Below are positions 13,054-29,543 of a stretch of 31,884 bases of DNA, piece after piece. This DNA is from an uncultured Oxalobacteraceae bacterium (lineage in GTDB: Bacteria > Pseudomonadota > Gammaproteobacteria > Burkholderiales > Burkholderiaceae): contig CAMLFK010000028.1 of assembly GCA_946479255.1 (NCBI GenBank), forward strand, positions 1 to 31,884, in the 5' to 3' direction. The position numbers and the translations under genes are program-made. How positions within the stretch are numbered: the first letter of the stretch is position 1; each line of letters starts with the position of its first letter. The notes below the pieces were generated by a model that saw only the letters and a list, made by a program, of their open reading frames with translations, ran no database searches and was not told where the DNA came from.

Positions 13054-14158
13054 TTACACACCCTGCTTGAGCGAAGCCGAGATGAAGTCGTCCAGGTCGC
13101 CGTCCAGCACGCCCTTGGTATTCCCGGTTTCGAAGTTGGTACGCAAATCCTTGATGCGCGACTGGTCCAGCACGTAGGAGCGGATCTGGTGGCCCCAGCC
13201 CACGTCGGTCTTGGAGTCTTCCAGCTTCTGCTGCTCGCTCATGCGCTTGCGCAGTTCGTGCTCGTACAGCTTGGCCTTGAGCATTTCCATCGCCTCGGCG
13301 CGGTTGCGGTGCTGGCTGCGGTCGTTCTGGCACTGCACCACAATCCCGGTCGGAGCGTGCGTCATGCGCACCGCGGAGTCGGTCTTGTTAATGTGCTGTC
13401 CGCCGGCGCCGGATGCGCGGTAGGTGTCGACGCGGATGTCGGCCGGGTTGACGTCGATCTCGATCGAGTCATCCACTTCCGGATACACGAACAGGCTGGT
13501 GAACGAGGTGTGGCGGCCGTTGGCCGAGTCGAACGGCGACTTGCGCACCAGGCGGTGCACGCCGGTCTCGGTGCGCAGGTGGCCGTAGGCGTACTCGCCC
13601 TCGACCTTCAGGGTGGCGGTCTTGATGCCCGCGACCTCGCCCTCGGACTGTTCAAGGATCTCGACCTTGAAGCCCTTGCGTTCGCAGTAGCGCAGGTACT
13701 GGCGCAGCAGCATCGAGGCCCAGTCCTGGGCTTCGGTACCGCCGGCGCCGGCCTGGATATCGATAAAGCAGTTATTGCCGTCCATCGGATTGTTGAACAT
13801 CCGGCGGAATTCCATGCCTTCGATGACCTTCTTGAATTCTTCGGCGTCCGCTTCGATTGCTTCGAGCGTATCGTGGTCGCCTTCTTCCTTGGCCATGTCG
13901 AACAGGTCGCTGGCGTCGCGCAGGTCGGCGTCGGCCTTGGTCAGCGTGTGAACCACTGCCTCCAGGGCCTTCTTTTCCTTGCCGAGGTCCTGGGCGCGCT
14001 TGGGGTCGTTCCAGACGGTCGGGTCTTCTAATTCTTCGTTAACTTGTTCGAGTTTCTCTGACTTTTTATCGAAGTCAAAGATACCTCCGAAGTTCGGCTT
14101 CACGACCGGTCAGGTCGTTCAGCAGGGCGGAGAGGGCGTTAATGCGTTCGGCTTCCAT
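13054..14158 (-). CDS. prfB: Peptide chain release factor 2 (programmed +1 frameshift)
   Basis: RF2, which terminates translation at UGA and UAA. Translation starts at ATG 14158 ([13 protein letters not shown]), reads 27 codons to CTT (14080-14078), meets an in-frame TGA (14077-14075) and shifts +1 to continue from GAC at 14076 to the TAA at 13054. The product is 367 residues (E. coli 365). The protein has the SPF anticodon-recognition motif (KSPFDS) and the catalytic GGQ in [12 protein letters not shown] naive call from the GTG at 14103 is the second frame only and misses the true N-terminus. Upstream, a group II intron ends 33 bp before the ATG. It leads an operon with the HAD gene and lysS. 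Confidence 0.97.
14074..14089 (-). promoter_or_regulatory. RF2 autoregulatory +1 frameshift site
   Basis: The minus strand reads CGGAGGTATCTTTGAC: an internal Shine-Dalgarno-like GGAGG three bases before CTT, followed by the in-frame stop TGA and a C, a poor termination context. This is the canonical RF2 recoding signal. When RF2 is scarce the ribosome pauses at UGA and slips +1, raising RF2 synthesis. Both frames are continuous on either side, and the joined protein matches RF2. Confidence 0.97.
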
Positions 14159-14191
14159 GGCGTTCCGGTCTTGATAGTGAATCGGTTGAAT

Positions 14192-14232
14192 GTTGGGTAG
14201 GAACAGGCCATTTCTGGCCCATTCCCCCCGTA
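14192..14232 (-). ncRNA. Group II intron domain VI and 3' splice site
   Basis: The minus strand after domain V forms a hairpin: GGG with CCC at the base, GGAA with TTCC above it, and GGCCA-GAAA-TGGCC at the tip. A bulged A at 14198 is the expected branch-point nucleotide. The intron then ends CCCAAC at 14192. The next exon base is 14191, 33 bp before the prfB ATG. Confidence 0.85.
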
Positions 14233-14266
14233 GAACCGTGCTTGCGGCTTTCACCGCACACGGCTC
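14233..14266 (-). ncRNA. Group II intron domain V (catalytic RNA)
   Basis: An exactly 34-nt hairpin on the minus strand. It begins GAGCCGTGTGCGG, has a GAAA tetraloop, and ends CCGCAAGCACGGTTC. It contains the AGC catalytic triad near its 5' side. This is the most conserved part of group II introns and binds the catalytic metal ions. Confidence 0.95.
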
Positions 14267-14314
14267 GAGCCTATAACACAATCTCTAAAATAAAATTATG
14301 TTTTCCAAAGCTCC

Positions 14315-16012
14315 CTATTGGGGAGCCGGCTTAGTTACTTTCAAACCTAAGCTATGCACCTGGGCATGGCAGTTAGGGTGTAGCAGAACACGATTTCCAA
14401 TGGCATCCGAGCCTCCATGCACACGATATTCAATGTGATGGTCATGCCACCCGGTCGCTTTAGTCATCCTGCAGTTACACAAAGCACAAAGTCCACCTTG
14501 GTCGAGATACATGCGAATCCACTGCTTACGGTGCTTCATGTCTTCCAACATACGCTCCTGCTGCAGTTGTTCGCCGTATTGCTCCCAACTTGGATCAAAT
14601 GGGTTATACGCCCCTTTGACTTTCTTGTGCCGTTTAATCGTTGTATCAGACAATCGATACAACTGTCTAAACTCCTTACCGCCGTCTTCTGTGACTACAG
14701 GAACTGCAAACACCCAATGCCGTTCACCGACAGAGCGGAAATACTTATTCCGTATCCATTCAGCGTTCTTCCTCGGATGCCGCCGTTTCGACCACCACCA
14801 GATCGCCCTGAACAACAGACTATCCAGACGGCTGTACGTCTCCTTGGCTACTACAGGACTGTGATACTGCGCCCAGCCCCGCAATACCGGATTCAGCAGA
14901 TCAATCAATTCCATCTGCGTCACCGTCTTATGCTCGTCGATGATTTCCTTCACCTTGCGATAAAACGCTTGCACGTTTTCCTTGCTCGGTTTAATGAGTA
15001 GTGTTCCCTGATACTTGCGGAAATTCCACCCTAGAAAATCAAAGCCATCGTCGATGTGAGCGATGCGCGTCTTTTCCTCCGATAATTGAAGTCCTCGTAA
15101 TGCCAGGAACTCAACGACCCAAGGTTTGACTTCATTTTCGAGCACATCTTTTGATGTGCCTGTAATGACGAAATCGTCCGCGTATCGCACCACATGGATC
15201 TTCAGCTTATTAGCCCGGCACCCAAACTTCTTCCTGAGATAATCAGCAAGACCGGTTTCCAGACCGTTCAACGTCATGTTTGCCAGCGTCGGAGAAATGA
15301 TTCCTCCTTGAGGCGTACCAGCTTCTGTCTCCTGAAACTGGTTCTGATAAATCAAACCAGACTTCAACCACCGCTTGAGAACGTTACGATCCATAGGAAC
15401 GTTATCGTTCAGCCACGCATGATTGATGTTGTCGAAACAGCCTGCGATGTCCGCTTCCAAGACCCACTCAGCCGAAGCCTTCATGGATAGGGAAACGAAC
15501 AGTTGGGACATTGCATCTGCTGTCGAACGGTTGGTCCTAAATCCATACGAATTCGGATCACTCGTTGACTCGGATACAGGTTCCAACCCTAGAAGGTATA
15601 AGGCTTGCATGGCCCGATCCAGCATCGTGGGTATCCCAAGGGGACGTTTTTTCCCATTCGCTTTCGGTATATAGATTCTCCGCAAAGGCAGAGGTCTATA
15701 TCCACGCTGCTTCATCCTTTCAAGTGCTGCCCATTTCGTTTCAGGTGACTCCCATAGCTCACCATCTACACCTGTCGTGCGTTTGCCTTGATTCTCAGTA
15801 ACACGTTTTACCGCTAACAGCTTTGCGGATTTCGTTCGGGTCAGCATCCGTTGCAGGGCTTTCACCTTGCGCCATCGACCTTCCCGAGTTGCCTTCGCAA
15901 TTCGTATCTGCATCCCTTTCACGTTCCGCTCAACATGACGCCAACTCACATCGTGCCAGTGTTGCGGACCGCCGGAAAGCGCAGACACATCCGCGTGGAT
16001 ATGCACTTCCAT
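14315..16012 (-). CDS. ltrA: Group II intron reverse transcriptase/maturase with HNH endonuclease
   Basis: A 565-residue intron-encoded protein that assists splicing and, as a complex with the excised lariat, inserts the intron by target-primed reverse transcription. The reverse-transcriptase domain covers about 65-330: RRIYIPKANGKKRPLGIPT, the GTPQGGIISPTLAN block, and catalytic YADD at 277-280. The maturase X region (about 345-440) contains LNPVLRGWAQYHS. The C-terminal HNH endonuclease has CALC at 509-512, HDHH at 523-526 and HPNCH near 545-549. I start at ATG 16012, which has AGGAGG 8 nt upstream; a GTG extension to 16042 would include that ribosome-binding site. There is no frameshift or stop. 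It ends with TAG. Confidence 0.95.
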   Translation of the reverse strand: MEVHIHADVSALSGGPQHWHDVSWRHVERNVKGMQIRIAKATREGRWRKVKALQRMLTRTKSAKLLAVKRVTENQGKRTTGVDGELWESPETKWAALERMKQRGYRPLPLRRIYIPKANGKKRPLGIPTMLDRAMQALYLLGLEPVSESTSDPNSYGFRTNRSTADAMSQLFVSLSMKASAEWVLEADIAGCFDNINHAWLNDNVPMDRNVLKRWLKSGLIYQNQFQETEAGTPQGGIISPTLANMTLNGLETGLADYLRKKFGCRANKLKIHVVRYADDFVITGTSKDVLENEVKPWVVEFLALRGLQLSEEKTRIAHIDDGFDFLGWNFRKYQGTLLIKPSKENVQAFYRKVKEIIDEHKTVTQMELIDLLNPVLRGWAQYHSPVVAKETYSRLDSLLFRAIWWWSKRRHPRKNAEWIRNKYFRSVGERHWVFAVPVVTEDGGKEFRQLYRLSDTTIKRHKKVKGAYNPFDPSWEQYGEQLQQERMLEDMKHRKQWIRMYLDQGGLCALCNCRMTKATGWHDHHIEYRVHGGSDAIGNRVLLHPNCHAQVHSLGLKVTKPAPQ

Positions 16013-16801
16013 GCTGCTTTCCTCCTGTAAGTTGAAGTTCACTTCAATTTCACAAGCAGAAAACCATAAAGCTCCTTGTGGGAGCGTTCATAGCTCCCAC
16101 AAGTGAAAATATCCATTCGGTGGGTATCCATATCCTGATACCCACCCTTCATCTCATCCAAGACAAAGGGTTCGGCCAGCCGCCTTGCGACGATAGACCA
16201 GATAGAAGTCTGCACCCTTTCAGGCCGGGACAAAGCTTGAATCCCTATCCGAACCATTACAGCCCGGCGTTCGCTTTCTCTATCTTCCCATGCCCGCTTC
16301 TCCGTCAGTTCCCCTTGCGGGTTGCCTGCCTCATCCAAACTCTGGAAAGGCGGAGAGTCGGGTTTTCCACGTTCCCTACTTATCACAAGACCGGGTTAGG
16401 GTCCGTCTATCCTCCGGTGGCTTCATGTCGACGTATTCCGAGGTTCGAGCAGAATATCCAGCCACATACCATTTTGGTTAGTGCCTAACAGCGGTTTTGG
16501 CACCTCAATCGTTACGAAGTTTTCGACGATTCACTTAAATTACCCATACCAGCCAGCCTAGCCCCTCAACCCCGTACTGCTCGGAGAATCCACGAAACTG
16601 CCTCACGGCAGGTCGTACCCATGTGGGGGGATACATTGTCAGGAAAGCTTCACACGCACCCGTTACCAGTTACGCATGTCTCCCTAGGCTACTGTTAGTC
16701 GCATAACAGGTTTCCTGGCCATCGCGTGAAGCATTACGATGGCCAAAACAATGATAAGTAGAACTCTCGCCTATTTACACTTGGCGAATTTCGTGTCGCA
16801 C
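16013..16801 (-). ncRNA. Group II intron domains I-III and start of IV
   Basis: The 789 bp upstream of the RT gene hold the structural RNA domains, not a gene. Perfect inverted repeats mark stems: TGGCCATCG/CGATGGCCA (16716-16724 and 16737-16745), CTGTTA/TAACAG (16692-16709), GGTGGGTATC/GATACCCACC (16119-16128 and 16137-16146), and CTTGTGGGAGC/GCTCCCACAAG (16075-16085 and 16093-16103). EBS2 and EBS1 sit at 16506-16511 and 16442-16447, about intron positions 291 and 355. I have not assigned each stem to a named subdomain. Confidence 0.85.
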
Positions 16802-16817
16802 CGAACCTTCGATTATA
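16802..16817 (-). promoter_or_regulatory. Intron target site (IBS1/IBS2) overlapping a putative prfB -10 box
   Basis: Minus strand 16817-16802 reads TATAATCGAAGGTTCG, ending at the 5' splice site. TATAAT (16817-16812) is a perfect -10 hexamer; the -35 at 17-bp spacing (CGGGCA) is weak. GGTTCG (16807-16802) is IBS1 and TAATCG (16815-16810) is IBS2. If this promoter works, transcription would start inside IBS1. The promoter function is inferred; the pairing with the intron is seen directly. Confidence 0.6.
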
Positions 16818-16833
16818 CCGCAGCGCGCTCGTC

Positions 16834-16862
16834 TTGCCCGGTGGCGGACGCCTGCGTATGAT
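16834..16862 (+). promoter_or_regulatory. Putative sigma-70 promoter of cpdB
   Basis: TTGCCC (16834-16839) and TATGAT (16857-16862) are separated by 17 bp and lie 35 bp upstream of the cpdB ATG. It faces away from, and lies just upstream of, the TATAAT box assigned to prfB on the other strand, so the two promoters are back to back. Confidence 0.5.
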
Positions 16863-16897
16863 GGGCCGGGTCGCGTTTCGCCTATCAGGCCGCCCTT

Positions 16898-18895
16898 ATG
16901 CCTTATCAATTTTGCATCCCAGCTTTCACTTTGCTGTTTTCCACCTGCGCCTGGGCCAATCCACCCGCCGGCAGCACGGCCGTACTTGCGCTGCTGGAGA
17001 CCACCGATTTGCACGCCAATGCGCTCGGCTACGATTACTACAAGCTCACTCCCGAGCCCTCGTTCGGCATGGACCGCCTGGCGACCCTGATCGCCCAGGC
17101 GCGCCGCGACTACCCCAACAACCTGCTGCTCGACAGCGGCGACACCATCCAGGGTTCGGCGCTGGCCGACCACCAGGCGCTGGTCAATCCGTTGCCGTGC
17201 AACCAGACGCTCGCGGTCTACAAGGTCATGAACCACCTGGGCTACGACGGCGGTGCCATCGGCAACCATGAGTTCAACTACGGCCTGGCCTACCTGAACC
17301 AGGTCACCGGCAGCCGCCTGGACGTGGCCGGCGTGGCGCCGGAGCAGCCGGCCTGCAGCGGCCCGGCTTTCCCGCTGGTGCTGGCCAACGTCTACAGCCT
17401 CAAGACCCACAAGCCGCTATTCGAGCCGTACCGCATCATCGACAAGCAGGTCGCCGCGCTCGATGCCGAGGGCAAGCCGGTGACGGCGACCATCAAGGTC
17501 GGCATCATCGGCTTTGCGCCGCCGACCATCCTGTCGTGGGACAAGCGCTGGCTGGAAGGGCGGGTGTACACCGAGGGCGTGCGCGAGGCCGCGCGCCGCT
17601 ACATCCCCGAGATGCGCGCCAAGGGGGCCGAACTGGTGGTGGCCCTGTCGCACGGCGGCCTCGATGGCGGGCCGTATTCGCCGCAGATGGAGAATGCCAA
17701 CTACCACCTGGCACAGGTAGGCGGCGTGGACGCCATGCTGATGGGGCATTCGCACCAGCTGTTCCCCAACGCGGCCAGCACGGTCACCCAGTTCAACCTG
17801 CCCGGCGTGGACAAGGCCAAGGGCACCGTGCATGGCGTGCCCAGCGTGATGTCGCACCACTGGGGTAAGAACCTTGGGGTGATTGCCCTGCACATGCGTC
17901 ACGACGGTACCCGCTGGATGGTCGACAAGGGCAAGACACAGGTGGAAGCCCGCGCTACCCAGTTACCCGATAAATCCTTCGTGGCGCCCGATCCCGCCGT
18001 GGCTGCACTGGTCGCGGCCGAACACGCCGCCACCATCGGCTACATCAAGACGCCCATCGGCACGGCGGACTTCCGCATGTCGTCTTACTTTGCCGATGTG
18101 GGCGACGTGTCGGCGATCGCCATCGTCAACCAGGCGCAGACCGACTATGTGAAGCGCTATGTGAAGGAAAACTTGCCGCAGTATGCCGCGCTCCCCGTGC
18201 TGTCGATGGCTGCACCGTTCAAGAACGGCCACGGCGGGGTGCAGGACTATACCGACGTCGCCGCGGGCAGCCTGGCGCTCAATCACGCGGCCGATTTGTA
18301 CCTGTATCCGAATGCGCTGTATGCGGTGAAGGTGGACGGTGCGCTGCTCAAAAGCTGGCTCGAACGTGCGGCCGAGCGCTTCAACACCATCGATCCCGCG
18401 CGCAAGGAGCCGCAGGAGCTGGTCAGTACTACCTTCGCCGGCTATAACTTCGACGCGCTCACTTCACCGGACGTGAGTTATGAAATCGGCCTTGCGCAGC
18501 CTCCGGGCCAGCGTATCGCCCGTCTGAGCTATCGCGGCAAGCCGGTGGCGCCTGGTGACGAGTTCATTGTGGCGACGAATAACTACCGCGCCGCCGGTGG
18601 TGGGCAATTCCCCGGGCTCGACGACAGCAAGACCGTGATTGCCTCGCACGACACCAACCGCGATGTGCTGATCGAGTACATCAAGTCGGTCAAGTCGCTG
18701 ACGCGGGCGGCGCATGGGCAAGGGCGCAGCTGGCGCTTTGCGCGCATGAGAACCAGTGGGCCGGTGGTGTTTTACGCGCCGCCAGGCTTGATCGCGCTGG
18801 CGCGCCAGGCTGGCTTGAACAATGTGACGCAGCTGCGCGCCGACGACGGGCGCGGCAAGGGCCTGGCCGCCTACGCGGTGGACCTTGCCAAGTAG
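16898..18895 (+). CDS. cpdB: 2',3'-cyclic-nucleotide 2'-phosphodiesterase/3'-nucleotidase
   Basis: A 665-residue bifunctional periplasmic enzyme (E. coli CpdB 647) that hydrolyses 2',3'-cyclic nucleotides and 3'-nucleotides for scavenging. A signal peptide opens the protein (cleavage near CAWA-NPP, residue 20), unusual in lacking Lys or Arg in its first residues; an in-frame stop at 16859 and no other start codon leave ATG 16898 as the only choice. The N-terminal metallophosphatase domain shows ETTDLHANALGYDYY, LLDSGDTIQGS, GNHEF, ALSHGG and GHSHQ, supplying the two-metal site. The C-terminal 5'-nucleotidase domain includes TNNYRAAGGGQFPG. It is transcribed opposite to its neighbours on both sides. 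Confidence 0.95.
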   Translation: MPYQFCIPAFTLLFSTCAWANPPAGSTAVLALLETTDLHANALGYDYYKLTPEPSFGMDRLATLIAQARRDYPNNLLLDSGDTIQGSALADHQALVNPLPCNQTLAVYKVMNHLGYDGGAIGNHEFNYGLAYLNQVTGSRLDVAGVAPEQPACSGPAFPLVLANVYSLKTHKPLFEPYRIIDKQVAALDAEGKPVTATIKVGIIGFAPPTILSWDKRWLEGRVYTEGVREAARRYIPEMRAKGAELVVALSHGGLDGGPYSPQMENANYHLAQVGGVDAMLMGHSHQLFPNAASTVTQFNLPGVDKAKGTVHGVPSVMSHHWGKNLGVIALHMRHDGTRWMVDKGKTQVEARATQLPDKSFVAPDPAVAALVAAEHAATIGYIKTPIGTADFRMSSYFADVGDVSAIAIVNQAQTDYVKRYVKENLPQYAALPVLSMAAPFKNGHGGVQDYTDVAAGSLALNHAADLYLYPNALYAVKVDGALLKSWLERAAERFNTIDPARKEPQELVSTTFAGYNFDALTSPDVSYEIGLAQPPGQRIARLSYRGKPVAPGDEFIVATNNYRAAGGGQFPGLDDSKTVIASHDTNRDVLIEYIKSVKSLTRAAHGQGRSWRFARMRTSGPVVFYAPPGLIALARQAGLNNVTQLRADDGRGKGLAAYAVDLAK

Positions 18896-19240: not shown

Positions 19241-19924
19241 TCAAATTGATTCGATCAGCGGTGTCGGCGATCCGCTCCAGGTCAGCCGATAGGCCGCACC
19301 CTTGCGTACATTGCCCACCAGCGCTGGCCGGAAGCAGGCCAGGCATGTGCCTCCTTCGTGGCGCACGCTGGGATAAATGATCCCCATCGATCCGGCGTCC
19401 AGCAGCTTGACCGCCAGCTTCTGCGATTCGATATAGCTTTCCGGGTCGAGGTATTTGACGAAGCTGTCCACCCCGCGCAGGTCGTGGAATACGCTGGTGA
19501 AGTCGGCCAGCAGTACCTGGTAGGTCACGCTGTCGTCGAAGCGGTCGATCTCGGTATATTCGACGGTCTTGTGGAAGCTGATCTCGGCCAGCGAGGTCTC
19601 GACGTCGAAGCCGCAGTACCAGGCCCCGCGCTCGCCGTCGTTGAAGCGGCTGCCCTCCGGGCGTGGATAGGTGTAGGCCGCGTTAATGATGCGGAAGTTC
19701 GGCACGCCGAACACCAGCTCATCGACGCCGATGCCGGGCAGCCCGCCGTACTCGCCGCGCAGACGCTCGTTGGTGGCGTTATCCAGGTCGAACAGGTCGC
19801 GCAGGACGTCATTGTCGTCAGCCAGCGGGCTGAGGACCGAGTCTTCGACGTCGGCGAAACGGGACGGGATCAGGCGGCAGGTGTCGAACTGGCGTAGTTG
19901 GGTGGTTGTTGGAGTGGCCGGCAA
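19241..19924 (-). CDS. RES domain toxin of a type II toxin-antitoxin system
   Basis: A 227-residue RES-domain protein. RES toxins consume or modify NAD+ (NAD+ phosphorylase or ADP-ribosyltransferase types). The family's Arg, Glu and Ser lie in GSRFND, SLAEISFHKT and YPSVRHEGG. The preceding gene is its Xre-type antitoxin, ending 2 bp before the start. I use TTG 19924 (then PATPTTTQLRQFD), with GGGGG 9 nt upstream. No ATG or GTG lies between the antitoxin stop and the conserved part, and the longer frame to 20056 runs through antitoxin coding sequence. The gene appears intact. Confidence 0.88.
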   Translation of the reverse strand: MPATPTTTQLRQFDTCRLIPSRFADVEDSVLSPLADDNDVLRDLFDLDNATNERLRGEYGGLPGIGVDELVFGVPNFRIINAAYTYPRPEGSRFNDGERGAWYCGFDVETSLAEISFHKTVEYTEIDRFDDSVTYQVLLADFTSVFHDLRGVDSFVKYLDPESYIESQKLAVKLLDAGSMGIIYPSVRHEGGTCLACFRPALVGNVRKGAAYRLTWSGSPTPLIESI

Positions 19925-19926
19925 GA

Positions 19927-20364
19927 TTACAGACCCCCACGGCGCGCATCGAGCAGCTTGCGTACGGTTTGCATTGCAAGAATGCCGCCGGCCAGCATTT
20001 GCGACAGCGGCGTGCGGCCGCCGAAGACCGGGTTCTTGTTGGGCAAGGTGATCCATTCGTCCGCCAGCTGGTCGCCGTACAGGATGTGCAGGGATTTATA
20101 GATGCCCAGCAAGTAAGAAATGCGCGTGATGCGGTCGACTTCGAGCACCCGGTCAGGATTCTTCTTCCACTCGTAGAAGGTGGAGGACGACAGGCCGCCC
20201 AGCAGTTCGCGGGCATCCTCGTCGCGCAGCTTCCATGCGGCGACCAGTTTGAAGAAGCCCTTGAGCGCGGATTTGGAGAGCCGCTCACGTTCGGCCCTGG
20301 CATTCAGATCGACCAGAACGGCGGGTTCAAAGCGACTTTTTGGATAGGCGTAAGCGAGATTCAT
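19927..20364 (-). CDS. Xre/MbcA/ParS-type antitoxin (DUF2384)
   Basis: A 145-residue antitoxin. The N-terminal part carries an Xre-like helix-turn-helix (about 30-90: LKGFFKLVAAWKLRDEDARE and LGGLSSSTFYEWKKNPD). The C-terminal toxin-binding DUF2384 domain includes NKNPVFGGRTPLSQMLAGG. It neutralises the downstream RES toxin and probably represses its own operon. ATG 20364 has GGAG 8 nt upstream. The gene leads an operon with the RES toxin and DUF2288, and a dyad overlapping its promoter is a likely operator. Confidence 0.92.
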   Translation of the reverse strand: MNLAYAYPKSRFEPAVLVDLNARAERERLSKSALKGFFKLVAAWKLRDEDARELLGGLSSSTFYEWKKNPDRVLEVDRITRISYLLGIYKSLHILYGDQLADEWITLPNKNPVFGGRTPLSQMLAGGILAMQTVRKLLDARRGGL

Positions 20365-25549: not shown

Positions 25550-25579
25550 GCTCTTACGTAAAATCCATTGATGGGGACC

Positions 25580-26848
25580 ATGAGCATCATCCACAGACTG
25601 CCGTACGAATGGCTGGTCGGGCTGCGCTACACGCGCGCCGGCCGCCGCGACGGCCGCAACAGTTTTATATCGTTTATTTCGCTCATTTCCGTTTCCGGTA
25701 TAGGCCTTGGGGTGGCGGCACTGATCGTAGTGCTGTCGGTGATGAACGGCTTTCGCAAGGAAGTCACGGACCGCATGCTGTCGGTGCTGGCGCATATCGA
25801 AGTCATCGACGCGGGGCAGGGCGGCATGCCTGACTGGCGCGCCATCGAACAGACCGTCCTCAAGAACCCGGCCGTCAAGGCTGCCGCACCGTTTGTGCAG
25901 ACCCAGGGCATGCTGCTGCGTGACGGCGTGATGCGCCCGGCCCTGATCCGCGGCATCCTGCCGGCCGAGGAACCCAAGGTATCCGACATCGCCAAGAGCA
26001 TGAGCCAGGGTTCGCTGAACGATCTGCGCCCCGGTCAATTCAATATCGTGCTGGGCTACGCGCAGGCGCGCTCGCTCGGCCTGAACATCGGCGACAAGGT
26101 CACCATGGCGCTGGCCCAGGCCCAGGTCACGCCGGCCGGCATGGTGCCGCGCATGCGCAGCTTCACACTGGTCGGGGTGTTCCAGTCGGGTCACTTCGAA
26201 TTCGATAACGGCATGGCTTTCGTCCATGTCGCCGATGCGCAGAAGATGGAGCGGCTGGCCGCGCCGTCCGGCATCCGCCTGCGCATCGGCGACATGCACC
26301 AGGCGCCCCAGGTTGCGCAAGCGCTCCAGGCCAGCGTCGGCAATGCGGTCGAAGTGCGCGACTGGTCCAAGCAGAACAAGACCTGGTTTGCCGCCGTCCA
26401 GACCGAGAAGAAAATGATGATGATCGTGATGACCCTGATTATCACGGTGGCCGCCTTCAACCTGGTCTCCACGCTGGTCATGACCGTCACCGACAAGCAG
26501 GCCGACATCGCCATCCTGCGCACGCTCGGCTCCTCGCCGCGCTCGATCATGAAGATCTTCGTGATCCAGGGCGCGCTGATCGGCACCCTCGGCACGCTGG
26601 CCGGGGTGGCGCTGGGCGTGGTGGTGGCGTCGAACATCGACGTCATCGTGCCGTTCTTCGAGCGCCTGGCCGGCGCGCAGATCCTGTCCGCCGACATCTA
26701 CCAGATCACCACGCTGCCGTCCGACATGCGCTGGGTCGACGTGATGGCCATCGGCGGCATTGCCGTGCTGATGGCCTTCGTGGCGACGATTTATCCAAGC
26801 ATGACCGCCTCGCGCGTCAAGCCGGCGGAGGCGCTGCGCTATGAATAA
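25580..26848 (+). CDS. lolC: Lipoprotein-releasing ABC transporter permease, LolC-like
   Basis: A 422-residue inner-membrane permease that extracts outer-membrane lipoproteins and hands them to LolA. The order is TM1 (about 25-50: [20 protein letters not shown]), a large periplasmic MacB-like domain, and three C-terminal TMs in an FtsX domain (about 280-415). The hook-region sequence [18 protein letters not shown] resembles the LolA-binding hook of E. coli LolC. ATG 25580 ([11 protein letters not shown]) fits the family; an upstream ATG at 25571 and a TTG at 25568 are in frame. Its last 8 bp overlap lolD. It is first in lolC-lolD-lolE-like-lolD2. Confidence 0.93.
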
Positions 26849-27566
26849 TCCAGGCAATCACACCGTGCTGTCCTGCCGCGGTCTCGGCAAAACCTACGTG
26901 CAGGGCGAGTACCGCGTCGATGTGCTCAGCAAGATTGACTTTCAGGTGGCGCGCGGCGAACACGTGGCCATCGTCGGCGCCTCCGGCTCCGGCAAATCGA
27001 CCCTGCTGCACCTGCTGGGCGGGCTCGATACCCCAACCAGCGGCATCGTCACCTTGCAAGGCCAGGACATGGCCGCGCTGTCGGAATCCGCGCGCGGCGA
27101 CCTGCGCAACCGTTCGCTTGGCTTCGTCTACCAGTTCCATCACCTGCTGCCGGAATTCTCGGCGCTCGACAACGTCGCCATGCCGCTGCTGATCCGCCGC
27201 GAGAAGCGCAGTGCGGCGCGCGAGCGTGCCGCCGCCATGCTCGAGCGCGTGGGCCTGGGCCGGCGCGCGGTGCACCGGCCCGGTGAACTGTCGGGCGGCG
27301 AACGCCAGCGGGTGGCACTGGCGCGGGCGCTGGTCACCCAGCCGGCCTGCGTGCTGGCCGATGAGCCGACCGGTAACCTCGACCACAGCACCGCGCAGCA
27401 GATTTTTGCGCTGATGGTCGAACTGTCGCGCACCCTCGGCACCGCCTTCGTCATCGTCACCCACGATAAGGAACTGGCCGGGCGCTGCGACCGCGTGCTG
27501 CGCCTGACCGAACACGGCCTGCAGCCCCACGAAACAGCCAAGACTATTCAAGGCGTGAGCGTATGA
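26841..27566 (+). CDS. lolD: Lipoprotein-releasing ATPase LolD, copy 1
   Basis: A 241-residue ABC ATPase that energises lipoprotein release. Walker A is GASGSGKST, with the Q-loop in [16 protein letters not shown], signature [15 protein letters not shown], Walker [12 protein letters not shown] and switch His in IVTHD. The linker between Walker A and signature is typical LolD. It overlaps lolC by 8 bp and the next permease gene by 4 bp (ATGA), so it is translated as part of a coupled operon. It is very similar to copy 2, differing mostly at the termini and in the segment before the signature. Confidence 0.95.
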
Positions 27567-28840
27567 GTTTTCTCGATTTGAATTTCCTCGACAAGCTGCC
27601 TTATGAATGGACCGTCGGCGTGCGCTACACGCGCGCCGGCAAGCGCAGTGGGCGCAACAGCTTCATCTCCTTCATCTCCTTGATTTCCGTGTCCGGCATC
27701 GCCCTGGGCGTGGCCGCCCTGATCGTCGTGCTGTCGGTGATGAACGGCTTCCAGAAAGAAGTCACCAACCGCATGCTGTCGGTGCTGCCGCACATCGAAG
27801 TCTATGACGTGCGCGGCGCCATGCCCGACTGGGCAGGCGCGGTAAAGGTAGCGCGCGAGAACCCGGCCGTGACGGGCGCTTCGCCCTTCGTGGTCACCCA
27901 GGGCATGCTGATGTCCGACGGCGTCATGAAGCCGGCCGTGGTGCGGGGTGTGCTGCCCGAGCAGGAACTGCAGGTATCCGATGTGCCCAACAACGTCAAG
28001 CAGGGTAGCTTCGCGGCGCTGCGCGAAGGCCAGTTCAACATCGTGCTGGGTATCGAACTGGCGCGCGGTCTGAACCTCAAGGTCGGCGACAAGGTTGCCA
28101 TGGCGGTGGCGCCGGAGCAGGGCGGCAGTGCAATGGCCCCGCGCCTGGTCAATTTCAGCGTGGCGGGCATCTTCGAGGCCGGCCACTTCGACTACGATTC
28201 CGGCATGGCTTACGTGCACCTGGCCGATGCGATGCAAGTGGCCAAGGTCAATGCGCCGGCCGGCATCCAGCTGCGCATCGCCGACATGCACCGCGCGCCG
28301 CTGGTGGCGCGCGAACTGATGGCCAGCATGGGCGAGCAGGTCATGATCCGCGACTGGTCGCAGCAGAACGCCACCTGGTTCGCCGCGGTGCAAAGCCAGA
28401 AGAAGATGATGTTCGTGATCCTGGTGCTGATCATCGCGGTGGCCGCTTTTAACCTGGTCGCCACCCTGGTCATGACCGTCACCGACAAACAGGCCGACAT
28501 CGCCATCCTGCGCACGCTGGGCTCCTCGCCGCGCTCGATCATGAAGGTCTTCATGATCCAGGGCGCGCTGGTCGGCATCATGGGCACCCTGGCCGGCGTG
28601 GGACTGGGCATGCTGGTGGCGCTCAATATCGACATCATCGTGCCGGCCATCGAACGTGTGCTGGGCGTGCAGTTCCTGTCCAAGGACATCTACCTGATCA
28701 GTACCTTGCCGTCCGACCTGCGCTGGGCCGATGTGCTGGCCATCGGCGGCGTCTCGGTGGCGCTGGCCTTTGTCGCCACGCTTTACCCTAGCTACAGCGC
28801 ATCGCGCGTGAAACCGGCGGAGGCCCTGCGCTATGAATGA
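27563..28840 (+). CDS. lolE: Lipoprotein-releasing permease, second copy, LolE-like
   Basis: A 425-residue permease with the same topology as the first copy: TM1 near 30-55, a periplasmic domain, and an FtsX domain with three TMs (about 280-420). Long stretches match copy 1 almost exactly, for example [13 protein letters not shown] and [20 protein letters not shown]. The hook region differs: [16 protein letters not shown] replaces the TPAG-type hook, as would suit a LolE-type subunit that does not bind LolA. I call it lolE on that basis, with moderate confidence. It overlaps lolD copy 1 by 4 bp and copy 2 by 8 bp. Confidence 0.88.
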
Positions 28841-29543
28841 CACGAACAAGAAGAACGAAGGCGCGCCGGTGCTGGCATCGCGCGCTCTGGGCAAGACCTT
28901 TGTCCAGGGTGACTACCAGGTCAAGGTGCTGAACAATGTCGACTTCAGCATCTACCCCGGCGAACGAGTGGCAATCGTCGGCGCATCCGGCTCCGGCAAG
29001 TCGACTTTGCTACATTTGCTGGGCGGGTTGGATACCCCGAGCAGCGGGTCGGTCACGCTTCTGGAACGCGATTTCGCCAGGCTCTCCGAGACGGCGCGCG
29101 GCGATCTGCGCAACCGCTCGCTCGGCTTCGTCTACCAGTTTCACCACCTGCTGCCGGAGTTCTCAGCGCTCGACAACGTCGTCATGCCGCTGCTGATCCG
29201 GCGCGAGGCGCGCGCCGATGCGGTGAAAAAGGCCCAGGCCATCCTGGAGCGGGTAGGGCTGTCCAAACGCGTGGTGCACCGGCCGGGCGAGCTGTCCGGC
29301 GGCGAACGCCAGCGCGTTGCCCTGGCGCGCGCGCTGGTGACCCAGCCGGCCTGCGTGCTGGCCGATGAGCCGACCGGTAACCTGGATCACGCGACGGCGC
29401 AGCAGATCTTCGACCTGATGCTGGAATTGTCCAGGACCCTGGGCACTGCCTTCGTGATCGTCACGCACGATATGGAACTGGCGCGCCGCTGCGACCGCGT
29501 GCTGCGCCTGACCGAACATGGATTGCAAGCCGTGGAGAGCTAA
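28833..29543 (+). CDS. lolD: Lipoprotein-releasing ATPase LolD, copy 2
   Basis: A 236-residue ATPase with all ABC motifs intact: [40 protein letters not shown] and IVTHD. It parallels copy 1 in position, overlapping its permease gene by 8 bp, and in sequence. Most organisms have a single LolD for a LolC/LolE pair. Two intact ATPases raise the possibility of a mixed ATPase pair or dosage effect. It lies 2 bp before the tatD-family gene. Confidence 0.94.

Follow-up and report, generated by a model that had tools for sequence, protein, structure and literature searches.

A group II intron in the prfB leader and a candidate intron lineage addressed to the -10 promoter box

Introduction

Three target specificities are listed for bacterial group II introns in a 2015 review, according to which most of these introns lie outside housekeeping genes (PMC4424553). 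Among the closest described systems, the intron-encoded protein (IEP) of EcI5 contacts bases just upstream of intron-binding site 2 (IBS2), namely C-18, C-17, A-15 and A-14, in addition to T+5 (PMC2882425). Introns of the IIB1 and IIB2 types form an extra pair, EBS2a-IBS2a, beside the pairing of exon-binding site 2 (EBS2) with IBS2, and this has been described as a general way to open duplex DNA (PMC9294222). In the introns related to the one found at groEL, a large insertion at the 5' extremity marks a subset lineage (PMC4465626). Here we analyse a group II intron inserted in the leader of prfB, the gene for release factor 2 (RF2), in a stretch of 31,884 nt from an uncultured Oxalobacteraceae bacterium (contig CAMLFK010000028.1 of assembly GCA_946479255.1, positions 1 to 31,884 of the forward strand), the whole of which is called the window below.

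Comparison of this intron with its relatives leads us to propose, with a probability of roughly 80%, that it belongs to a mobile, retrohoming group II intron lineage that would be addressed to the -10 box of sigma-70 promoters. The evidence is a fixed distance between box and intron, guide sequences that follow the box from site to site, and the position of the insertions in front of many different genes.

Results

The preliminary description of this DNA had reported an intact intron, with both ends, domains V and VI, EBS1 and EBS2 and an undamaged reverse transcriptase (RT)-X-HNH protein, placed in the prfB leader 33 bp before the start of the gene. Both its intactness and its position were confirmed. 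The element begins with GUGYG, and Rfam detects part of domain I (group-II-D1D4-7, 16710-16562, minus strand, 117.9 bits) as well as domains V and VI (Intron_gpII, 14268-14192, minus strand, 62.7 bits), which fold with a bulged A 7 bases from the 3' end (z -6.0), while EBS1 and EBS2 are complementary to the 5' exon. The IEP contains RVT_N, RVT_1, GIIM and HNH domains with an intact YADD motif, and scores 367.5 bits against TIGR04416 (cutoff 300). Its start is likely the ATG at 16012, which is preceded by AGGAGG; a GTG at 16042 is the earliest start codon in frame. The closest solved chain is 6me0_C (E 4.5e-184), from the T. elongatus intron, and by this nearest structure the window intron may belong to the CL/IIB1 class. 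The parts of the intron and of its insertion site are as follows.

14192..16801, minus strand: group II intron, 2610 nt, 5' GTGCGAC..CCCAAC 3', with an empty site in relatives
16562..16710, minus strand: part of domain I (Rfam D1D4-7 match)
14192..14268, minus strand: domains V and VI, with the bulged branch-point A at 14198 (Rfam match and fold)
14315..16012, minus strand: IEP, RT-maturase-HNH, 565 aa from the likely ATG (open reading frame and domains)
16442..16447, minus strand: EBS1 (CGAACC), pairing 6/6 with the 5' exon
16507..16511, minus strand: EBS2 (CGATT), pairing 5/5 with the 5' exon
16802..16807, minus strand: IBS1 (GGTTCG), the six terminal bases of the 5' exon (guide covariation)
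16810..16814, minus strand: IBS2 (AATCG), hexamer positions 4-6 and two further bases (guide pairing)
16815..16815, minus strand: position of the IBS2a type, the T at hexamer position 3, pairing with the A at 16513 (guide pairing; 65/67 introns pair here)
16812..16817, minus strand: TATAAT, the prfB -10 hexamer, separated from the intron 5' end by 10 nt (TATAAT in 29/29 relatives whose flank is readable)
14159..14191, minus strand: 3' exon stretch of 33 nt, the remaining prfB leader (sequence)
13054..14158, minus strand: prfB (RF2), with the programmed +1 frameshift site CGGAGGTATCTTTGAC at 14074-14089 (open reading frame and family match)

A conserved empty site, which the preliminary description had put forward as the test of the insertion, was found in relatives. 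We searched 97 genomes of one family, in 89 of which prfB was matched, and took the best 30 loci; the upstream flank was readable in 29 of them (L087 was cut). All 29 have a TATAAT upstream of the prfB start, no more than 80 nt away, so that no intron lies between the two, and in four (L086, L093, L095 and L100) the flanks are continuous across the junction and match the joined flanks of the window, reading ..TATAATCGAAGGTTCG^ATT.. there. The prfB insertion is real, precise and private to the window within the sampled relatives. It leaves the prfB start at 14158, 33 nt after the intron, and the frameshift site is kept. A near-identical plasmid copy of the window intron was searched for and none was found. 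The intact, precise leader insertion of the preliminary description stands, but the 10-nt gap that separates the intron from the -10 box had been overlooked.

Relatives were collected through IEP similarity in the Duganella family (392 genomes, 47 of them matching at E 1e-100), in the order to which one Burkholderiales genome belongs (399 genomes, 11 at 1e-150) and in a Pseudomonas family (398 genomes, 53 at 1e-150), samples that overlap in a few genomes, and intron 5' ends were located through the GTGCGAC motif. From the family and order searches 72 extra places, a part of those found, were taken, and 156 loci (L numbers) were parsed in total. The first relatives comprised 12 loci, 8 of them with both ends readable, and displayed a TATAAT-like box, about 10 bases and then the intron, before unrelated genes. 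A gap of 10-12 nt was recorded as the pattern after the first nine loci, before further loci were fetched. In a FastTree phylogeny of 147 IEPs the promoter-type introns form one clade of 99 tips (support 100), recovered again when 12 loci were added (support 99); it includes the window IEP and has members in Burkholderiales and Pseudomonadaceae. Leaving out seven tips without a 5' end and two with untrustworthy ones, the clade provides 90 introns at 71 distinct sites. Outside it, a 5' end was present in 51 introns, 41 of which were retained, at 36 distinct sites; the ten dropped as doubtful ends or fragments include L008, a fragment which shows the promoter pattern.

TAnnnT occurs 9-12 nt upstream of the intron in 67 of the 71 clade sites and in 1 of the 36 sister-lineage sites. 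The background frequency of the pattern (35 of 5964 positions) would give 1.7 of 71. The gap is 10 nt in 55 of the 67 hits, 11 in 7, 9 in 3 and 12 in 2; at the 63 distinct sites that were added once the pattern had been recorded, it is 10-12 in 57 and exactly 10 in 50. The first base of the hexamer is T in 65 of 68 introns. A2 and T6 are present in 68/68, but the hexamer search required both, and the fair measure of their conservation is the fraction of sites with TAnnnT given above. The possibility that the pattern arose from the way loci were found was considered and rejected: the search used only the IEP and GTGCGAC, and sister introns from the same searches lack the hexamer. Five loci outside the clade (L065, L169, L172, L180 and L185) have weak hexamers at a gap of 9-12 under a looser score, without TAnnnT there. 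A class-level sample of 369 genomes contained known clade copies in G007 and G444 and yielded 12 new loci, none of them in the clade, and no promoter-type exon was seen by eye (no score was run) among the ten with a candidate 5' end. With TATAAT at a gap of 10 and all five EBS2 pairs, the window intron follows the rule of its lineage, and for this reason its insertion at prfB is not singular. The preliminary description had called it unusual, a view that gives way here, since placement at a gap of 9-12 in front of housekeeping genes is the habit of the lineage.

The guides were searched for blindly. For 70 introns with distinct exons the 5' parts were aligned, and the pairing of each column with the intron's own exon was compared with its pairing with the exons of other introns. 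This gave two clear covariation peaks, EBS1 against exon positions -6 to -1 (z 22.5) and EBS2 (z 17.3). From -1 to -6, EBS1 forms Watson-Crick pairs in 57, 50, 68, 65, 58 and 52 of the 70 introns. Anchored on the hexamer, EBS2 pairs with positions 4, 5 and 6 in 64, 66 and 67 of 68 introns and with the two bases that follow in 65 and 59, all five pairs being present in 55 and at least four in 65. At sites with a gap other than 10, the register of EBS2 follows the hexamer rather than the insertion point in 11 of 12 cases, and the twelfth, L028, fits TAATAA at a gap of 10. The base before the EBS2 loop A pairs with hexamer position 3 in 65 of 67 introns (33 expected); by its location this would be the published EBS2a-IBS2a pair. 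Judged by this covariation, hexamer positions 3-6 are read by RNA guides. The guides are diverse, with 55 different EBS1 and 35 different EBS2 among 68 introns, and are matched site by site.

One guide base departs from this diversity. Opposite hexamer position 6, EBS2 has A in 67/67 introns (L028, L132 and L147 set aside; L028 has T). In sister introns all four bases occur at that place, among the 16 of 36 that have an exact EBS2 fit in the same CGT-n-A frame, which indicates that the ribozyme frame tolerates any base there. Selection on the guides for splicing only was also considered and is disfavoured: IBS2 lies upstream of the expected start of transcription, and pairing kept there points to selection at the DNA target.

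The pattern sites precede at least 37 different targets, comprising 34 named gene families and three tRNA genes. An automatic open reading frame (ORF) rule sorted what lies downstream into 51 clusters for the whole clade and into 49 groups for the 67 hits; of the 49 groups, 34 could be named through NCBIfam (prfB by a separate match) by scanning one representative per cluster, 40 proteins of at most 400 residues each. The named targets are an FKBP isomerase, an IS66 transposase, a nucleoside bisphosphate phosphatase, a response regulator, acuI, amgK, ampD, argF, argH, cbiE/T, coaBC, dapA, def, a degS-like gene, dinG, dnaX, efp, ftsY, glnS, lipB, lptD, mepK, mrcA, pmbA, ppiB, prfB, ribF, rimO, secB, serS, tcdA, ubiE, ygfZ and yjgA. 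Several of the best matches, for example lptD, mrcA, dinG, amgK, ppiB, pmbA, mepK, the FKBP isomerase and the response regulator, fall below the curated cutoff, partly because the scans were limited to 400 residues; in the scan of 40 representatives no family matched L054 or L128. By eye, tRNA genes open three groups (L118, L133 and L137). Twelve other groups are without a name, among them L191 and L194, which have no 3' end, and L117, which by eye is the FKBP gene again. In addition, two of the four sites missing the pattern are followed by coaD (L058) and ybaK (L028), and erpA (L046) follows an intron without a 5' end. Many of the genes downstream are housekeeping genes, and many are essential.

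An ORF starts on the same strand within 70 nt downstream in 57 of 66 scored distinct sites (median 30.5 nt), some of the automatic picks not being the true start, as for prfB, scored at a post-frameshift GTG, and the host ORF is left intact in most cases. At dnaX, for which 59 genomes were searched and 30 loci fetched, TAnnAT is present upstream and the intron absent there in 24/24 loci with a readable start; in this comparison L216 carries, by eye, exactly the 5' exon letters of L144. In five introns (L005, L006, L123, L178 and L179) the 5' exon ends with the ATG start codon and the ORF resumes in the 3' exon, so that the first mRNA exon may be little more than AUG.

Two copies in one genome, L039 and L074, are 99.9% identical and carry the same guides at different sites. 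L074 lies 10 nt after TATTTT, where the guides of its twin match 5/6 IBS1 and 3/5 IBS2 bases (by eye). This pair shows a recent jump, and favours an order in which ectopic insertion comes first and the re-matching of guides later.

Some copies are irregular. The terminal 24 upstream exon bases of L156 equal those of the lptD-site introns L131 and L134, and its 3' exon leads into tig; it is perhaps a recombination between intron copies, and was merged with L134 in the site count. L147, before efp, has a decayed hexamer and shares its guides with the dnaX-site intron L148 but not with its neighbour L146; it is perhaps a recombinant as well. The length from the intron 5' end to the IEP is about 900-1290 nt in most clade members, 759 in the window, 782 in L004 and 717 in L178 and L179. 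Near the 5' end of three introns there is an extra insert with a conserved short antisense ORF of ~99 aa (L001, 3897-4196; L002, 3917-4273; L003, 3880-4179; minus strand); the window intron and L004 are without it. No Pfam family matched the L001 and L003 copies scanned, and a search returned 4 relatives, the query's own record included.

Nine sister introns (L072, L073, L075, L078, L126, L190, L227, L229 and L235) sit, by eye, in the anticodon arm of tRNA-Gly-like genes, and in L075 the 3' exon runs on into the T-arm and acceptor end. In the window itself, the gene divergent from prfB is:

16898..18895, plus strand: 2',3'-cyclic-nucleotide phosphodiesterase gene, cpdB-like (ORF and family match)

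Between recJ and cpdB, at 19241-20364, there is a RES-domain gene with an Xre/MbcA/ParS-type antitoxin gene, and at 25568-29543 similar membrane-protein and ATPase genes form two tandem pairs, which by eye resemble lolC/lolD.

Discussion

We favour a lineage that would be addressed to the -10 box itself, its members being inserted in the orientation of the promoter. EBS1, EBS2 and EBS2a are complementary to their own site, so that RNA guides recognise the hexamer from position 3 to position 6, the two bases after it and the last six bases of the 5' exon, and the IEP would presumably read hexamer bases 1 and 2 (T and A), as related IEPs read bases just upstream of IBS2. Sigma-70 transcription starts about 7 nt after the -10 hexamer, and the insertion is thus predicted to lie near +4 of the transcription unit. 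The intron would reverse-splice at this position and be transcribed from the captured promoter, with a 5' exon of about 4 nt in the RNA and with IBS2 absent from the intron-containing transcript. In most cases host ORF and start region stay whole behind it, making a site that would be transcribed and do little harm. New promoters would be reached by ectopic insertion and guide drift, followed later by a renewed match of the guides.

Several points weigh against this proposal. The position +4 is predicted from the usual layout of sigma-70 promoters, and the reading of T1 and A2 by the protein is something we infer. No -35 enrichment was seen in one scoring (mean -0.03 against 0.14 in control windows), nor in a second attempt, while in a third a spacer of 17 had the second best mean of 60 offsets; over the three attempts, all made with the E. 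coli consensus, the signal is weak or absent. The mean -35-type score at clade sites is highest at a spacer of 8 upstream of the hexamer, without explanation. Of the four clade sites without the pattern, L058 has the hexamer CATAAT, L028 has guides that fit TAATAA, L147 combines its decayed hexamer with mismatched guides, and L132 sits after a stop codon (by eye). Two introns inside the clade, L023 and L024, had to be dropped with 5' ends that could not be placed, and the clade sites are not fully independent by descent.

Less likely than this proposal, targeting could be coupled to transcription, the ribonucleoprotein invading the non-template strand exposed in the open complex of RNA polymerase. 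Reverse splicing requires melted DNA, the open complex is melted from about -11 to +2/+3, and guide pairing, from hexamer position 3 to the insertion point, spans nearly this region. T1, A2 and T6, the best conserved bases of sigma-70 -10 boxes, are near-invariant here (T1 in 65/68, TAnnnT in 67/71), as sigma would need; T6 is base-paired and could drift with its guide like positions 3 and 4, but hardly ever does, whereas sister introns use any base. However, an IEP reading TA together with one conserved guide base needs no polymerase to give the identical pattern, T6 would be contested between sigma and the guide, and the weak -35 signal does not help the case for coupling. Slightly more doubtful is the wider claim that promoter invasion via the open complex, with pairing that spans the bubble and sigma's key bases as the fixed address, would form a further target specificity beside homing sites, terminators and attC.

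It is unlikely, in our judgement, that the prfB intron is an isolated insertion placing RF2 supply under splicing control, as the preliminary description had suggested. The intron does lie between a conserved -10 box and the prfB start, and splicing would matter directly in the five introns where an ATG ends the 5' exon. But the insertion is not isolated, and the prfB ORF and start region are intact and wholly within the 3' exon, so that unspliced RNA could be translated; RF2 supply may depend on splicing but need not. A scan with the E. coli consensus, which also misses the prfB promoter itself, detected no sigma-70-like site on the minus strand of 13900-17000 and hence no hint of a rescue promoter within the window intron.

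We give distinctly less credit to the idea that the lineage targets an A+T-rich TAnnnT motif with no link to promoters, most such motifs being promoters in G+C-rich genomes. The weak -35 signal and the recent copy L074 at TATTTT would agree with it, but it does not account for the ORF starts within 70 nt at 57 of 66 sites and the three tRNA sites, nor for the hexamers of prfB and dnaX, which are conserved in intron-free relatives. Survivor bias alone, with wide insertion and persistence only of the transcribed and harmless copies behind promoters, would suit the many housekeeping genes and mostly intact ORFs downstream but is very improbable, for host selection would accept any leader position and cannot fix a gap of 10 in 55 of 71 sites or the register of EBS2 with the hexamer.

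In the open literature searched (titles and the beginnings of abstracts) we found no promoter insertion by group II introns, and the work of Michel et al. 2007 on specialised lineages may overlap with ours. A lineage addressed to the -10 box in front of housekeeping genes would, if true, represent a fourth target specificity and would explain how such introns live beside important genes. It would raise the question of whether a retroelement can enter through DNA melted by RNA polymerase, and its site-matched guides offer, as a natural data set, dozens of solutions to DNA targeting.

The clade resembles the EcI5 and Thermosynechococcus TeI introns (CL/IIB1) in its RT-maturase IEP, in its EBS/IBS logic and in the divergence of guides to new sites (PMC2882425). 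In those introns the sites are set by guides and a few IEP contacts (PMC2882425), while the clade described here would keep the -10 box as the fixed part of its address throughout its 55 EBS1 in 68 introns. The single extra pair of the EBS2a type (PMC9294222) is likewise found in the clade, in 65/67 introns, but here falls inside the -10 box. The Azotobacter intron at the groEL stop codon (Ferat et al. 2003; PMC4465626) also occupies the edge of an essential gene and represents a neighbouring lineage in the IEP tree; the groEL-type introns of our set (L170, L171, L174 and L187, groEL by eye) branch outside the promoter clade, and their sites lack a -10 box. Class C introns are likewise a group II lineage whose address is a transcription signal rather than one gene (PMC4424553). 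They are without an endonuclease domain and use terminator or attC motifs (PMC4424553), whereas the window intron has an HNH domain and lies 10 nt after a -10 box, and membership of class C was rejected for it.

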